Shown: piece by piece, positions 20,493-51,899 of the stretch
Layout: every line of letters begins with the position of its first letter
Position numbering within the stretch: position 1 is the stretch's first letter
NCBI GenBank assembly: GCA_919903025.1
Contig: CAKKSE010000040.1
Location: 1 to 52,607, forward strand
Length of the DNA: 52,607 nucleotides
From: Nitrospiria bacterium
GTDB taxonomy: Bacteria > Nitrospirota > RBG-16-64-22
Direction: 5' to 3'
Notes under the pieces: generated by a model
The model's database searches: none
What the model saw: the letters and a program-made list of their open reading frames with translations, nothing else
What the model was told of the DNA's origin: nothing
Made by a program: the position numbers and the translations under genes

Positions 20493-21605
20493 TTACTCGA
20501 ACAGGTCCCGCACCCGCGACAGGAAGTTCTTCTCCACACCGCCGTCTTCCCCGGCCAGCGCGGCGAATTCTTCCAACAGCTCGCGCTGGCGCGGGGCGAG
20601 CTTCTGGGGCGTCACAACGACGATGCGCACCTGCTGGTCGCCCACGCCCCGGCCGCGAACGTCCGCGATCCCTTTCCCCTTGAGCCGGAAAACTCTTCCG
20701 GTCTGTGTCCCGGGCGGAATCTTGAGCGGGGCCGCGCCGGCGAGCGTAGGAACGTCGATCGTCCCTCCCAGGGCGACCCTCGCAAAACTGACGGGGACAT
20801 CGCAGACCACGTCGTTTCCCTCCCGCCGAAAGAGGGGATGAGGGGTTACGTGAACTTCGATATAGAGGTCGCCCGGCGGCCCTCCCCGCCGGCCGTGTTC
20901 CCCTTCCCCCATCAGGCGGAGACGCCCGCCGTCGTCGATGCCGGGCGGGATCTTCACGGAGATCGTCTTTTCGGACGGGACCCGTCCGTGTCCCCGGCAT
21001 GTCTCGCACGGATGGGAAATGATCCGCCCCTCGCCGTTGCAATGGGAACACGTCCGGCGGATCGTGAAGAAGCCCTGCTGGTAGCGGACTTCTCCCATCC
21101 CGCGGCACGTCGGACATTCCGCGGGTCCGCTCCCCGCACGGCCGCCGGACCCGCGGCACGTGCCGCAGGTCTCGGAGCGGTTGAGGCGGATGGTCGTCTC
21201 CCTGCCGAACGCCGCGTCTTCGAACGAGACTTCGACGGACTGGAGGATATCGGCCCCGCGCTCCGCCCGCTGCCGTTGCCGCCGCCGGCCGCCGCCTCCG
21301 AAGAAGTCCGAGAAAACCTCTTCGAAAATGTCCCCGACGCCCCCGAATCCGCCGCCCCCCCCGAACCCCTCGAAACCGCCCGCTCCCGGAGCTTGTCCGT
21401 ATCGGTCGTAGAACTCGCGCTTCTCCTGGTTGGACAGGATCTCGTACGCCTCGTTCGCTTCCTTGAACTTTTCTTCCGCCGACTTGTCGCCGGGGTTCTT
21501 GTCCGGATGATGCTTGACGGCCATGCGCCGGTAGGCTTTCTTGATCTCGGCCTCGCCGGCGTTCCGGGGAACGCCCAGGACTTCGTAGTAGTCGCGCTTA
21601 GACAT
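20493..21605 (-). CDS. dnaJ: Chaperone DnaJ (Hsp40)
   Basis: A 370-aa full-length class A J-protein that delivers clients to DnaK and stimulates its ATPase. J domain (1-70) with HPD in [11 protein letters not shown] Gly/Phe-rich linker (about 75-105). Zinc-binding repeats [24 protein letters not shown] and CETCRGHG. C-terminal client domains. The bases directly before the ATG are the tandem repeat TTCACCSA rather than a Shine-Dalgarno site, which may lower its translation relative to dnaK. Confidence 0.97.
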
Positions 21606-21606
21606 C

Positions 21607-21654
21607 GGTGAGACGGTGAATGGGTGAATCGGTGAATGGGTGAACGGGTGAAAG
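21607..21654. repeat. Short-period tandem repeat, six 8-bp units
   Basis: The plus strand reads GGTGAGAC, GGTGAATG, GGTGAATC, GGTGAATG, GGTGAACG, GGTGAAAG. It ends two bases before the dnaJ start codon and takes the place of its ribosome-binding site. Confidence 0.85.
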
Positions 21655-23674: not shown

Positions 23675-23695
23675 GATTTCCTCCTGCTCAAAGAC

Positions 23696-23785
23696 GGTGG
23701 ATGGGTGAATCGGTGAGTCGGTGAATCGGCGGGATCCCGTTCATCCATTCACCCATTGACCCATTCACCCATTCACCTGTTCACC
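23696..23785. repeat. Short-period tandem repeat, 8-bp period, inverted arms (grpE-dnaK gap)
   Basis: The left arm has GGTGGATG, GGTGAATC, GGTGAGTC, GGTGAATC. The centre is the palindrome CGGGATCCCG. The right arm has CCATTCAC, CCATTGAC, CCATTCAC, CCATTCAC, CTGTTCAC. The right arm encodes the last residues and the stop of grpE (GEQVNG-stop). Confidence 0.88.
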
Positions 23786-28090: not shown

Positions 28091-28128
28091 TGTAGTGTCC
28101 CTAACGCTTCTTTACATAGAAAGAGAGA

Positions 28129-28219
28129 TGTCATTCCCGCGGAAGCGGGAATCCAGAGCAAGAAGACTGGATTCCCACGCATCAAGTGCGGGGCAGGCTC
28201 CGTCAAGCCCGGAATGACA
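28129..28219. mobile_element. MITE-like dispersed repeat with terminal inverted repeats
   Basis: A 91-bp element begins TGTCATTCC and ends GGAATGACA, with inner hairpin arms (CCGC-GGAA-GCGG; ATCCAG...CTGGAT). TCATTCCCGC-type elements of this shape are spread through many bacterial genomes. It has no coding capacity and sits in the ispA-dxs gap. Confidence 0.7.
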
Positions 28220-28250
28220 AACAAAGTAAATGGACTTATGGGACACCACG

Positions 28251-29150
28251 CTAGCGCTTTCGCTCAACGATGAACCGGGCCATCGACCTGAGCGGCCCGG
28301 CCCGTCCGCCGAACCGATCGATGTCCTCGATGGCCTTCTCGACGAGCTCCTTCGCGAGTCCCCGAGACTCGACCAGGCCGAGGAGGCGCGGGTAAGTCTG
28401 CTTCTGCTTCCGGTTGTCGCCGCCGACGCTCTTTCCCATGACCGCCGGATCTCCTTCGACGTCCAGCAGATCGTCGGCGATCTGAAAGGCAAGGCCGACC
28501 TTCTCGCCGAAGCCGGAGAAGGCCTCGAAATCGGTCTCCCCCGCTCCGCCCACGATCGCGCCCGCCCGAACGGCGGCCCGGATCAGGGCCCCCGTCTTGT
28601 GCGTGTGGATGTACTCGAGGACGGCCATGTCCGCGTGGAGCCCTTCCGACGCGACGTCGACGGCCTGCCCTCCGACGAGGCCGCCGTGGCCCGCCGCCCG
28701 CCCGATCTCCTGGATCACCCGGATCCGGTCGGGAGCGCCCAAGTTCGGGTTGAGGCCGTCGTCGGCCAGCACGTGAAACGCGAGGGTGAGAAGCGCGTCC
28801 CCCGCGAGGATCGCCATGGCCTCGCCGAAAACCTTGTGGTTCGTCGGCCGGCCCCGGCGTATATCATCGTCGTCCATCGCCGGCAGATCGTCGTGGATGA
28901 GCGAGTAGGCGTGGATCAGCTCGAGGGCCGCCGCTGCCGGGAGAACGGCGTCATCGTCCCGCCCGCACGCTTCGGCCGAAGCGATCGCCAGGGCGGCCCG
29001 CACCCGCTTTCCGCCGGCCAGGGTGGAATACCGCATCGCTCGATGCAGGACGTCCGGGAACGCTCCCTCGGGGGGAAGGACACGGTCGAGCTGACGGTCG
29101 ACGCGGCGCCGGCAGGTCTCCAGATACGGGGCGAGGTCGACAGCCGTCAA
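28251..29150 (-). CDS. ispA: Farnesyl/geranylgeranyl diphosphate synthase
   Basis: A 299-aa all-helical prenyl transferase that condenses isopentenyl diphosphate onto allylic diphosphates. The first Asp-rich motif is IHDDLPAMDDDDIRRG and the second FQIADDLLDVEGD; GGKRVRAAL binds the diphosphate. The TTG start at 29150 overlaps the xseB stop (TTGA) and has GGAGAAGGAGA upstream, so the track extension of 43 residues is rejected. Order xseB-ispA-dxs-tlyA links it to the MEP pathway. Product chain length cannot be read with confidence. Confidence 0.95.
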   Translation of the reverse strand: MTAVDLAPYLETCRRRVDRQLDRVLPPEGAFPDVLHRAMRYSTLAGGKRVRAALAIASAEACGRDDDAVLPAAAALELIHAYSLIHDDLPAMDDDDIRRGRPTNHKVFGEAMAILAGDALLTLAFHVLADDGLNPNLGAPDRIRVIQEIGRAAGHGGLVGGQAVDVASEGLHADMAVLEYIHTHKTGALIRAAVRAGAIVGGAGETDFEAFSGFGEKVGLAFQIADDLLDVEGDPAVMGKSVGGDNRKQKQTYPRLLGLVESRGLAKELVEKAIEDIDRFGGRAGPLRSMARFIVERKR

Positions 29151-29407: not shown

Positions 29408-29472
29408 GCTCCGGTTCCGGGGATTCGGGATCGTTATTATACTCCGCCGCCCCAGGGATTAAAACCTTCTTA

Positions 29473-29512
29473 CTTGGGTGGCTGGGAACTTCCTATCAAC
29501 CATCAACCTTTC
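29473..29512. repeat. Short-period tandem repeat, 8-bp period, xseA-xseB gap
   Basis: On the plus strand TGGGTGGC and TGGGAACT lead to TCCTATCA and ACCATCAA. Its units match the element upstream of the che operon (GGGTGGCTGGG and GGAACTTCC). It encodes the last residues and stop of xseA (KVDG-stop). Confidence 0.7.
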
Positions 29513-30839
29513 GGTCCACGGTGGCGTCGACGGACCCCTCCCCGAGCCGGACGCGGATCCGGTCCCCCGGGGAGAGAGCGGCGGCGGAACGGACGACCGC
29601 CATTTCGGGCAAAGCAAACGTCAGGCTGTATCCCCGGGAAAGAACGCCCAGGGGAGACAGAGCCGCGAGGCGCTCGGACAGCCGCCGGAGGGTCTGCCGG
29701 CGAACCCCCAGGCCGGTCCGCATGGCCGGCGCGAGGATTCGACGCGCCGTCTCGAGCCGTCCCCGCTGACGCGCAAGCCCGGCCTCCGGATGGCGCCGCA
29801 TGAGCCGGCGAACGACAGCCTCCAGCTCCCGCCGCCGTTCGTTCCCTCTCTCGCGCCAGGCGCCGCGGAGACGTCCGGCCAGATCGTCCACCCGCTGGGC
29901 GAACCGTTCCAGCAGGACGGTCAGATCGCCCAGATCGCGCGAAGCATGGCGCAGGCGGGACCGCTGTTCCCGGAAAACGGCGCGCGCCCCCATTGCCAGG
30001 CGCCGGGCCAGGAGGTCGATCTTCTCGTGGAGCTCGATCTTCGATCGAACGATCATGGACGCGGCCGCCGTAGGCGTGGGCGCCCGCACGTCCGAGGCGA
30101 AGTCGGCCAGCGTGAAGTCCGTCTCGTGCCCGATCCCCGTGACTACGGGGACGCGCGACCGGACGATCGCCCGGACCACTTCTTCCTCGTTGAAAGCCCA
30201 GAGGTCTTCCAGCGAGCCGCCGCCCCTCACGAGGAGGAGCACGTCCGGGGAATGGCGGTTCATCTCGTCGATCGCCCGGGAAACGGCCCGCGCGGCGGCG
30301 GGGCCCTGGACCGGCACTGGATGGATGAGGATCTGAAGGTCGGCGAAGCGGTCGCGGAGGACGCGCAGGACGTCGCGGATCGCGGCGCCAGTGGGAGACG
30401 TGATCACGCCCACCCGGATCGGAAGGAACGGGAGCGGTCTCTTCCGTCCCTCGTCGAAGAGCCCCTCGGCGGCCAGCCGCTTCTTAATCTGCTCGAACGC
30501 GAGCTGGAGCGCGCCCCGCCCGCACGGGTCCATCGTCTCGACGACGATCTGATACGTCCCCCGCGGCTCGTAGACGGTGAGCCTGCCCCGGCAGATGACC
30601 TTGAGTCCGTCGGCGGGACGGAACTTGAGGAACCCGACGGCGGCGCGGAAAAGAACGGCTGAGATCTGGGCCGACTCGTCCTTGAGCGTGAAGTAAACGT
30701 GGCCCGAGGAGGGAATCTTGAGGTTCGCGATCTCCCCCTCGACGATGACGCGCGAGAACTCGATTTCGAGCGATTCCCGCACGCGGCGGGTCAGTTCAGA
30801 TACTGTCAGCGGAGTCTCTTCTCCGATTCTCCTATTCAC
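29496..30839 (-). CDS. xseA: Exodeoxyribonuclease VII large subunit
   Basis: A 447-aa catalytic subunit. An N-terminal OB-fold (FSRVIVEGEIANLKIPSSGHVYFTLKD) precedes the nuclease core with VGVITSPTGAAIRDV, VRGGGSLEDLWAFNEE and GIGHETDFTLADFASD. A long coiled-coil region and a short C-terminal domain follow. The GTG start lies inside an 8-bp tandem repeat (GTGAATAG) with no clear ribosome site, and the stop also lies in a repeat. The N-terminal residues NRRIGEE are therefore likely repeat-derived. Confidence 0.95.
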   Translation of the reverse strand: MNRRIGEETPLTVSELTRRVRESLEIEFSRVIVEGEIANLKIPSSGHVYFTLKDESAQISAVLFRAAVGFLKFRPADGLKVICRGRLTVYEPRGTYQIVVETMDPCGRGALQLAFEQIKKRLAAEGLFDEGRKRPLPFLPIRVGVITSPTGAAIRDVLRVLRDRFADLQILIHPVPVQGPAAARAVSRAIDEMNRHSPDVLLLVRGGGSLEDLWAFNEEEVVRAIVRSRVPVVTGIGHETDFTLADFASDVRAPTPTAAASMIVRSKIELHEKIDLLARRLAMGARAVFREQRSRLRHASRDLGDLTVLLERFAQRVDDLAGRLRGAWRERGNERRRELEAVVRRLMRRHPEAGLARQRGRLETARRILAPAMRTGLGVRRQTLRRLSERLAALSPLGVLSRGYSLTFALPEMAVVRSAAALSPGDRIRVRLGEGSVDATVDRKVDG

Positions 30840-30856
30840 CTATTCACCTATTCACC
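30823..30856. repeat. Short-period tandem repeat, 8-bp units, ymdB-xseA gap
   Basis: CCGATTCT is followed by CCTATTCA three times. On the minus strand this reads TGAATAGG repeated, and the GTG start of xseA falls inside it. Confidence 0.85.
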
Positions 30857-35037: not shown

Positions 35038-35262
35038 CCACGTCCGGGAACCGGGACCCCCGCCTCGGTCGTGTCGACGGAAAATTGAGCCTGGCATTGA
35101 CCAGGTGGGCGCCGTGATAAGAGGATCAGGCTTTCCATCCCGCCCGAGGCGGGACGGACGTGCACACACCCCTTAGGTCACCGCTCCCCTTGCTTGACGC
35201 ACTAGGATCAATTTTTTCAGCCGATCACGCGCCAGGCAGGGGACCCCGTTCCCGGCGCAGTT
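35038..35262 (-). ncRNA. ssrS: 6S RNA (ssrS), RNA polymerase regulator
   Basis: The location directly downstream of zapA on the same strand is the classical 6S position. On the minus strand the ends pair over more than 20 bases: GCGCCGGGAACGGGGTCCCC near the 5' end against its near complement GGGGGTCCCGGTTCCCGGAC near the 3' end. The interior holds elements like those of E. coli 6S RNA: GTCCGTCC followed by AAGCCT, and then a CACCTGG-loop-CCAGG hairpin. The length (about 225) is a little above the usual 180-200. Ends are approximate. Function by family: it mimics an open promoter and holds the housekeeping RNA polymerase. Confidence 0.65.
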
Positions 35263-35272
35263 GTCGATCTCC

Positions 35273-35314
35273 AATTTACAATTTGAAATTTTCAATTTTC
35301 AATTTACAATTTTG
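35273..35314. repeat. Short-period tandem repeat, six AT-rich 7-bp units
   Basis: The plus strand reads AATTTAC, AATTTGA, AATTTTC, AATTTTC, AATTTAC, AATTTTG with no gaps. It lies between zapA and the 6S RNA and could provide the 6S promoter (TTGAAA...TAAATT on the minus strand). Confidence 0.85.
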
Positions 35315-35325
35315 TATCTTCCGTT

Positions 35326-35604
35326 CTACGAGCCGTCGAGGAGCGCGGCGATCTCCGCCGCTTTCCGCTCGCTCCAGCGGTCTTTCTCCTCCGCCGCCTT
35401 CCTCGCTTGGAACAACTCATCCGCGATGTTGAACGCCGCGAGGACAGCGACACGGACCGGGCTGCCACCGCCCCCCCCGTCGTTCACTTCCCTCATCTTG
35501 CCGTCGACGTACCGGGCCACGTCCTTGACGTAGGCGTCGTCGGCCTCGCCCTTCACCCGGTAGGTCTGGCCCAGAATGCTGACATCGACCGCTTTCGGAC
35601 TCAT
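35326..35604 (-). CDS. zapA: Cell division protein ZapA
   Basis: A 92-aa protein that bundles FtsZ filaments at the division site. The N-terminal head has VDVSILGQTYRVKGEADDAYVKDVARYVD and the C-terminal helix DELFQARKAAEEKDRW. An insertion of five Gly residues sits between head and helix. A ribosome site (CAGGAG) lies inside the stop of the preceding coiled-coil gene, which ends one base earlier. Position next to 6S RNA supports the assignment. Confidence 0.92.
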   Translation of the reverse strand: MSPKAVDVSILGQTYRVKGEADDAYVKDVARYVDGKMREVNDGGGGGSPVRVAVLAAFNIADELFQARKAAEEKDRWSERKAAEIAALLDGS

Positions 35605-35931
35605 CTACTCCTGCTCCACGCTCTCAAGGTCGCGAAGGAGGTTTTCGATCTTGTCCCGCATCTCCAATCTCTCGGACTCGAAGCGGCCCGCTTCCTCGCG
35701 GCCGCGGCGGAGCATGATCAACTCGTGCTCAAGGCGGTTGATCTCGTCGCTCCGCTGGGTAACCTCCCGCTCCAGCATCCGGACCACCGATTCCAGGTGG
35801 GTTTTTTCCGATCGTGCCTTCTTGTGGGCGCCCATCAGGCGATTGATCTGGTCCTCCAGAGATTGCCGATGAGCGTCGATCATCGAGTCTCCATTTCCAC
35901 CATCAAGCGGCAAGGGCATCTGCGCGGTCAT
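35605..35931 (-). CDS. ZapB-like coiled-coil protein
   Basis: A 108-aa protein that is almost wholly coiled coil from residue 22 (RQSLEDQINRLMGAHKKARSE) to the end. Its size, coiled coil and position directly before zapA suggest the division factor ZapB or a functional equivalent, which links ZapA-FtsZ to the chromosome terminus. Coiled coils are poor for family assignment, so this rests mainly on context. It has its own promoter just upstream. Confidence 0.7.
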   Translation of the reverse strand: MTAQMPLPLDGGNGDSMIDAHRQSLEDQINRLMGAHKKARSEKTHLESVVRMLEREVTQRSDEINRLEHELIMLRRGREEAGRFESERLEMRDKIENLLRDLESVEQE

Positions 35932-35952: not shown

Positions 35953-35981
35953 ATCTTATCCAGGCTCCCCTTGCGTGTCAA
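35953..35981 (-). promoter_or_regulatory. Sigma-70 type promoter for the ZapB-like/zapA unit
   Basis: On the minus strand TTGACA (35981-35976) is 17 bases from TAAGAT (35958-35953), about 20-30 bases before the start codon. Confidence 0.65.
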
Positions 35982-36076: not shown

Positions 36077-38259
36077 ACGATACGTCGTATCGGCCGAAAC
36101 GCCGTCGCCGAGAACATGTTCCCCGGCTGCCTTCCGTCCGCGTACGTCGATTGATACCAGGCGTACGACGTCAGGACGCGCTTCACGTATTCGCGCGTCT
36201 CGCGGTACGGAATTCTCTCGACGAACTCGTCGCGCTCCACGGTCCCGAATCGCCGGACCCATCGATCCACGGCGCCCGGTCCAGCGTTGTAGCCCGCGAG
36301 AGAAAGAACGACGTCGCCCGCGTACCGCTGTCTCAGCCTCGCGAGGTACCATGTCCCCAGATCGAGGTTCCTTTCGGGCCGCCGCAAGGACCCCGATACA
36401 TCGGGGCGCTGCTTCATGATCTGGCGCCCGGTTTGCGGCATGATCTGCATGAGGCCCAGCGCCCCGGCCCGCGATACGGCCTCGGGATCGAACCGGGACT
36501 CTTCCCGAACGACGGCCAGAACGAGGTAGGGGTCGATCTCTTCCCGATCCGCGAACCGCTTAAGGTCCTCCCAATAGGCTCTCGGAAAGAACTGCCGCCG
36601 GGCGGACTCCGGAAGGGAGCCGGGGTCGTTCCGCCCTTCGAACGCGAGCACAGCCGATCGGAAGTCTCCGGCTTCGATGAGAAGATCGTTCACCGCCACC
36701 ACGCACCGGATCTCGCCGCCGCATCCCCGGTTCGCGCGGGCCAGCTCGCGCCGGGCTGCGCCCTGAAGTCCCAGCTTCAGAAGGATCTGCGCCCGGCGGA
36801 TGGAATCGTTCCCGCGAAGCCTCTCGGGGATCTGCGCGTTCGCCCGGTCCTCGCCCGACCCGGCATCCCGGACCGGCGTCGTTCGCCCCCGCTCGGCCGG
36901 AATCGGGTCAGTCGAGATCCGGCGCTTCATGCGCTCTTCGGCCAGAAACCCGTAATACGACGGACCCATCCGCACGACGCGGCGATAGTCGCCCTGCGCC
37001 CCGTCGATGTCTCCCCGACGCTCCGCCGCCCGGCCGCTCCAGTAAGCGGCCCGCGGAGCCAGCGCGGATCGGGGAAACTCCGCCGTGAGCTTCTTCCAGG
37101 CGCGGCGGGAGGCGTCCATCGCCCCCGCCTCATACTCCGCCCATCCCCAGAACCAGAGCGCTTCCTCGATCATTTCGTCCTCGGGAAACTCCTCGGTCGC
37201 GCGGCGGAACGAGGACTTGGCTGTCTCCCGGTTCCCTTCGTCCAGGTGGAGCTTCCCGCGAAGGATCAGCGCCCGTCCGTACCAGACCGTTTCCTTCTCC
37301 TCGTCGGCGAACGCGGCCAGAACCCGGTCGACCTTGTCGAGCCGGTCGAGCCTCCCATATGCGCGCATCACCCACCAGCGCCCTTCGGCCCGTGCCTCCG
37401 GCGTTGCGGCGCGCTTCACCCACCGATCGAACAGGCCAGCCGCCTCAGAGTACCTTCCTCGGGCGAATTGCGCCCTGGCCGCGAATCTCAGCGCCGTGTC
37501 GGACGGGATATCCTTGAGCAGGGAAAGAAACTCCTCCGCGGCCGCCGGATATCGCTTCTGGTCGAACAGCCGGCGCGCCCGCGCCAGCCGGTCCGATCCT
37601 CCCAAGGCCGGATCGATTCCCGAGGCCGACAGATTGCGGACGAGGATTTCGGCCTCACGCTCCTCGGGCGAGAGCGGGAACATCACGCGTATCTTCCTCG
37701 CGCGCTCGCCAGCGACGGCGAACTGGCCGCTCTCCGCGGCGATCCGGGCGGAGGAAAGGAGCGCCTTCGCGGCGTGTGGATGATTGGGGTGGCGGTCCAA
37801 GAAGGCGTCGTAGGCGTCCCTCGCGTCCCGCGGCCGGCCCGCCCGCGCCAGCGATTCGGCGGCACGGTATCGCGCGTCGGCCGAGAGGATTCCGTCCGGA
37901 CGAGCCTGGACAGCCCGGCCGAACGCATCCGCCGCCGCTGGCCATGCTTCTCTCTTGGCCGCGCTCTCGCCGATCCAGAAGAAGGCGTAGTCGGCCATCA
38001 GGGGAAGGTCGTCCGCCGCCTCGCGGAAGAGCCTCTCCGCCTCTTCCCAGCGGAGTGCCTCGAGCAACTGCCTCCCAAGAAGGAGACGCGCCGTTCCGCG
38101 TTCCTCCGGCGAGAGCGTCCGTCCGGAGCCCTCTACCGGAAGATGGGAGGTTCCCGCTTGCCCGGCCGAACCAGCGAACAGGAGAAGGAACGCCCCCAGG
38201 CCGAATGCCGCCCCGACGAGTCCGCCGAAAGCGGACCGCCGGGAGGACCTACCGGACAT
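36070..38259 (-). CDS. slt: Soluble-type lytic murein transglycosylase with TPR-like region
   Basis: A 729-aa periplasmic enzyme that cleaves peptidoglycan glycan strands with formation of 1,6-anhydro ends. A signal peptide or anchor (about 10-35) is followed by a long superhelix of TPR-like repeats (about 45-520). The C-terminal SLT domain has the catalytic Glu in VVREESRFDPEAVSRAGALGLMQIMP and AGYNAGPGAVDRWV. The SLT domain is interrupted by a segment encoded by a DNA palindrome (CCCCGAT-AC-ATCGGGG). Its start lies within the end of the tonB-like gene, and its stop falls in a tandem repeat. Confidence 0.92.
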   Translation of the reverse strand: MSGRSSRRSAFGGLVGAAFGLGAFLLLFAGSAGQAGTSHLPVEGSGRTLSPEERGTARLLLGRQLLEALRWEEAERLFREAADDLPLMADYAFFWIGESAAKREAWPAAADAFGRAVQARPDGILSADARYRAAESLARAGRPRDARDAYDAFLDRHPNHPHAAKALLSSARIAAESGQFAVAGERARKIRVMFPLSPEEREAEILVRNLSASGIDPALGGSDRLARARRLFDQKRYPAAAEEFLSLLKDIPSDTALRFAARAQFARGRYSEAAGLFDRWVKRAATPEARAEGRWWVMRAYGRLDRLDKVDRVLAAFADEEKETVWYGRALILRGKLHLDEGNRETAKSSFRRATEEFPEDEMIEEALWFWGWAEYEAGAMDASRRAWKKLTAEFPRSALAPRAAYWSGRAAERRGDIDGAQGDYRRVVRMGPSYYGFLAEERMKRRISTDPIPAERGRTTPVRDAGSGEDRANAQIPERLRGNDSIRRAQILLKLGLQGAARRELARANRGCGGEIRCVVAVNDLLIEAGDFRSAVLAFEGRNDPGSLPESARRQFFPRAYWEDLKRFADREEIDPYLVLAVVREESRFDPEAVSRAGALGLMQIMPQTGRQIMKQRPDVSGSLRRPERNLDLGTWYLARLRQRYAGDVVLSLAGYNAGPGAVDRWVRRFGTVERDEFVERIPYRETREYVKRVLTSYAWYQSTYADGRQPGNMFSATAFRPIRRIVD

Positions 38260-42050: not shown

Positions 42051-42096
42051 CCGATTCACCGATTCACCGATTCACCGATTCACTGATTCCCCGATC
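42051..42096. repeat. Short-period tandem repeat, 8-bp units, GAF-cheB gap
   Basis: CCGATTCA occurs four times in a row, then CTGATTCC. On the minus strand this is TGAATCGG repeated, and it encodes the end and stop of cheB (SVNR-stop). Confidence 0.88.
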
Positions 42097-51717: not shown

Positions 51718-51810
51718 GGGGCCTCCGTTTCGCCTCCAGCCGCTCCTGCGCTCGATCAGCGCTCGCGGAGAGAGACGCGGACATGCACCCTCTTTTCGGC
51801 AGCCCGGCCA

Positions 51811-51863
51811 TCCCGATCTTGTCGGGACCCGTTTTCGGCATTCCGGCCCCAGCTTGCGCTGGG
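51811..51863. repeat. Pair of hairpins in the PilZ leader
   Basis: TCCCGA-TCTTG-TCGGGA and CCCAGC-TTGC-GCTGGG are perfect stems. TTTTCGGC occurs twice around the first one (51793 and 51832), as in dispersed palindromic repeats. Confidence 0.6.
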
Positions 51864-51899
51864 TGTGGCTTTTCGGGGTTGGGTGTCTACAGGGGAGTT

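Follow-up and report, generated by a model that had tools for sequence, protein, structure and literature searches.

The window analysed here, a 52,607-nt stretch of a Nitrospiria bacterium genome, carries on its minus strand a 6S RNA preceded by two genes. The 6S RNA (RF00013, 35053..35245) was recovered by cmscan with 80.6 bits, against a gathering score of 46.4 (E 2e-14). Upstream of it lies a zapA-like gene (ORF 35326..35604, stop at 35326), which we take to be zapA from its sequence and from the zapA-ssrS neighbourhood, preceded in turn by a coiled-coil ORF (35605..35931), called zapB-like by position. A promoter-like element, TTGACA-17-TAAGAT (35953..35981; 10/12 matches), stands before the zapB-like ORF. 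ZapA-like ORFs, about 35-48% identical, precede 6S in many other Nitrospirota. The window also harbors a c-di-GMP-I riboswitch at 51795-51879 (minus strand, 47.4 bits).

The gap between zapA and 6S is occupied by six uninterrupted AATTTNN units (35273..35314, plus strand), namely AATTTAC, AATTTGA, AATTTTC, AATTTTC, AATTTAC and AATTTTG, which read (NNAAATT)x6 on the strand coding for 6S and zapA. TRF reported the tract as 35272-35312/3, with periods of 7, 14 and 21. All 4 three-unit matches of the window fell within 35273-35314, with 0 expected from 100 dinucleotide shuffles of the window, and the local GC content was 0.43, compared to about 0.65 around. Counted from the Rfam 5' end of 6S, the tract occupies the stretch 28-69 nt upstream. 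Sequence, TRF and cmscan all agreed with the original prediction of six perfect AT heptamers directly upstream of 6S; equally, these heptamers stand about 13 nt past the zapA stop codon.

The terminal stem of 6S was extendable in RNA folding by at least 8 pairs beyond the Rfam model, positions 35255-35248 pairing with 35051-35044 through a 5' arm CCGGGAAC (35248..35255, minus strand) and a 3' arm GTTCCCGG (35044..35051, minus strand). Both sides of this extended stem were altered together in the congener G002 (CCGGGGAC / GTCCCCGG). The extension and the paired change together indicate that the RNA probably starts at 35255 or further upstream, which would bring the tract within about 18 nt of the start.

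Within the genus there is a whole family of short tandem arrays in intergenic DNA, with the unit AAATTGN, and the tract is an unexceptional member of it. Three-unit heptad matches, counted with overlaps, numbered 195 across the 2.86 Mb genome (0 for the reversed-pattern control), and 305 and 179 in the congeners G001 and G002, respectively. A loose four-unit pattern was present in 45 of the 246 genomes sampled from the phylum, the three genomes of the genus far exceeding all others in number of matches; those in G066, G115, G204 and similar genomes were mostly the self-complementary AAATTTC/AAATTTG and were excluded from the family. The strict pattern (CAATTTN)x4 had 0 matches in 50 genomes reached via ZapA hits, mostly from other phyla, and no match in G157. 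Given the 195 three-unit matches of its genome, the tract cannot be regarded as special to 6S, being one of dozens of arrays located next to unrelated genes. A literature search for the repeat sequence returned nothing relevant.

Arrays were concentrated between genes and oriented relative to gene ends. Within 831 kb sampled from the three species and chosen for containing arrays, period-7 arrays reached 41 per 100 kb in intergenic DNA vs 3.3 within genes, about a twelvefold difference (genes were predicted with a simple in-house caller whose start positions are uncertain). Once orthologous sites had been merged, the coding strand read AAATTGN at 34 of the 39 independent sites located at most 60 nt from a stop codon (binomial p 2e-6), and the 6S tract follows this orientation relative to zapA. 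The same after-stop orientation was obeyed in the genus by octads with the unit GGTGAATN (16 of 17 independent sites), and in G040, which represents a different family of Nitrospirota, the AAATT-sense orientation was shared by 10 of the 11 heptad arrays that follow stops. Near start codons, orientations were split 23 vs 21 in the genus, with no bias seen at these crudely called starts, and most near-start arrays of G040 fitted an upstream non-coding-strand orientation when judged by eye.

Octad arrays (unit GGTGAATN / NATTCACC) were found in intergenic DNA of the window at 21604-21652, 23695-23785, 30826-30856 and 42051-42095, the array at 23695-23785 being an inverted pair missing from both congeners. 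Inverted heptad pairs about 40-50 nt apart and capable of forming hairpins were observed at L150 13577-13683 and L161 18562-18652. That arrays might always form inverted pairs was considered and rejected, since several do but most are single.

The strong after-stop strand bias, displayed in two families of the phylum, and the existence of several inverted pairs would suit arrays acting at gene ends, for instance at the RNA level, in 3' untranslated regions, or as hairpins where two of them face each other. Against such a role, many arrays are single and unable to pair, and both array presence and unit number turn over between species, so that it appears decidedly unlikely.

Unit number and surroundings of the arrays differed between species. 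The window is syntenic with contig C59 of G001 and contig C20 of G002 (about 85-93% identity), and repeat-bearing intergenic stretches were among the most divergent places between it and the congeners. The 6S site holds 6 perfect units in the window species and 5 in each congener (one genome per species), the congeners having additional degenerate heptads on the 6S side. At other orthologous sites, unit numbers were 6/4 for heptads, and 3/3/7 and 13/3 for octads. Ten heptad sites were shared by at least two of the sampled species, several of them with different unit numbers, and heptads present in both congeners opposite window positions 29446-29511 were absent from the window. Copy number thus varies as had been proposed, in so far as it differs between species; slippage as the accompanying mechanism is probable.

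Insertions of other kinds were also seen along these contigs. One at 28093-28251 of the window, with inverted ATTCCCGCGGAAGCGGGAATCC-type repeats, is missing from both congeners and resembles a small non-autonomous mobile element. Others, located on contig C59 of G001 (L061, L166, L167) and likewise bearing inverted repeats (GCTGAAAAA... and GCAAGGCTGAAGCCTTGCCCTAC), lie opposite window positions 38246 and 51938 and are absent from the window.

The tract does lie at the position expected of a 6S promoter, and it contains the best sigma-70-like pair of the zapA-6S gap, TTGAAA-18-TAAATT (35273..35302, minus strand; 9/12 matches), with a PWM score of 12.4 that was reached in 0 of 300 shuffles. 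This part of the original prediction stood, whereas pair and spacing proved variable in the congeners: the best gap pairs there scored 8.3 and 6.3, were placed differently and had a -10 hexamer lacking its first T, and the distance from tract to 6S was 28 nt in the window species, 49 nt in G001 and 35 nt in G002. The tract might nonetheless serve as 6S's own promoter, the array providing the hexamers and an AT-rich upstream element, with no regulation by unit number. A clear sigma-70-like promoter (TTGAAT-17-TATTAT or TTGCCA...TATATA) occupies this gap in most other Nitrospirota in which zapA precedes 6S, so an own 6S promoter might be expected here too. However, beyond the differences between congeners, among 85 arrays with 4 or more units, 24 (28%) had a promoter-like pair on the same strand, vs 1.9% of other intergenic stretches. 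Since 28% of arrays carry such a pair, its occurrence is unsurprising given the unit, and the pair of the tract is probably a by-product of the repeat. An own promoter within the tract is therefore unlikely, although its location would be correct.

A stronger claim had been that slippage changes unit number and with it promoter spacing, which would tune 6S. Perfect repeats can slip, and unit number does differ between species. When units were deleted or duplicated in silico, however, hexamer spacing stayed at 18 nt after loss of any of units 1-5 or duplication of any one, because the tract is periodic and the next unit along provides a similar hexamer. The first hexamer became slightly weaker (TTGTAA) when unit 3, 4 or 5 was lost, and only loss of the 6S-proximal unit removed the promoter-like pair. 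Nearly all single-unit changes thus leave the spacing intact, contrary to what was claimed, and the placement of the tract obeys a genome-wide after-stop rule; tuning of 6S by unit number is extremely unlikely. The arrays may also be pictured as a genome-wide supply of AT-rich promoter parts, of which the one at 6S would have been co-opted as a promoter, its periodicity holding hexamer spacing despite unit turnover; we regard this as very unlikely.

Transcription of 6S could instead start further upstream. The element before the zapB-like ORF scored 13.2 (shuffle fraction 0.003), and its hexamers are identical in the window species, G001 and G002. In G003, the nearest relative outside the genus within the same class, the zapA-6S gap is about 22 nt long, holds no array and reached a best promoter score of 2.8. 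The conserved element and this short gap without a promoter suggest that 6S is transcribed by read-through. Read-through followed by processing would be the most economical and most likely source of 6S.

We consider it quite likely, as a joint reading, that the tract belongs to the genus-wide array family, that 6S is produced at least partly by read-through and that no 6S-specific role attaches to the tract. Replication slippage, or unequal exchange of units, would most likely create the arrays and alter them wherever the DNA tolerates such changes, and one array would already have occupied the zapA-6S gap by the time the three species diverged. Transcription from the promoter-like element before the zapB-like ORF would run at least partly through to 6S, which would then be processed. 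At most, the tract would contribute AT-rich DNA, which could serve as a promoter or upstream element, weak and not conserved. The promoter-like pair of the tract lacks conservation among the genomes compared, and a function of the tract specific to 6S is probably absent as well. As a counterpoint to this joint reading, each of the three species retains an array at the 6S site, that of the window species including a fair sigma-70-like pair. The locus-specific account of 6S is thereby corrected: the tract comes from a genome-wide repeat family positioned by gene ends.

Among known systems, the promoter repeats of contingency loci, involved in phase variation, resemble the tract as tandem repeats near a possible promoter; unlike them, the tract keeps its hexamer spacing on unit change and has dozens of counterparts next to unrelated genes. 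Direct TAACTGA repeats of Beggiatoaceae form 169 intergenic sets in one genome and are patchy among relatives (PMC4679880). They share with the Nitrospirota heptads the numerous short intergenic heptamer arrays and the patchy distribution, but are mostly located within several nucleotides upstream of starts and have a fixed unit (PMC4679880), while the Nitrospirota heptads favour positions after stops and vary at 2 of 7 positions. The heptanucleotide STRR repeats of cyanobacteria, with three heptanucleotides in Calothrix as cited in PMC4692102, are also tandem heptamers; unit and lineage set them apart.

The heptamer arrays of Xanthomonas (GGGAATC) and Nostoc (GGGGA(C/T)T) are strongly intergenic and lie 0-50 bp from stop codons on the coding strand or, upstream of ORFs, near the start codon on the non-coding strand (PMC4692102). 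In related species they mostly occupy corresponding intergenic positions, where they vary in length and sequence; they stand next to many unrelated genes, and their G-rich units form quadruplexes (PMC4692102). The Nitrospirota arrays resemble them in their many intergenic sites, their fixed strand after stops and their shared sites of varying length, but the unit AAATTGN contains no GGG and coexists with an octad family of the same placement. In form and placement AAATTGN arrays therefore match this kind, while constituting a different repeat family, and the oriented intergenic heptamers of Xanthomonas and Nostoc are their closest known kind (PMC4692102). Because the same after-stop placement is found with units devoid of GGG, ordinary quadruplex formation probably does not explain in general the placement rule, which extends from quadruplex-forming heptamers to the AT-rich heptads and GGTGAATN octads of Nitrospirota.
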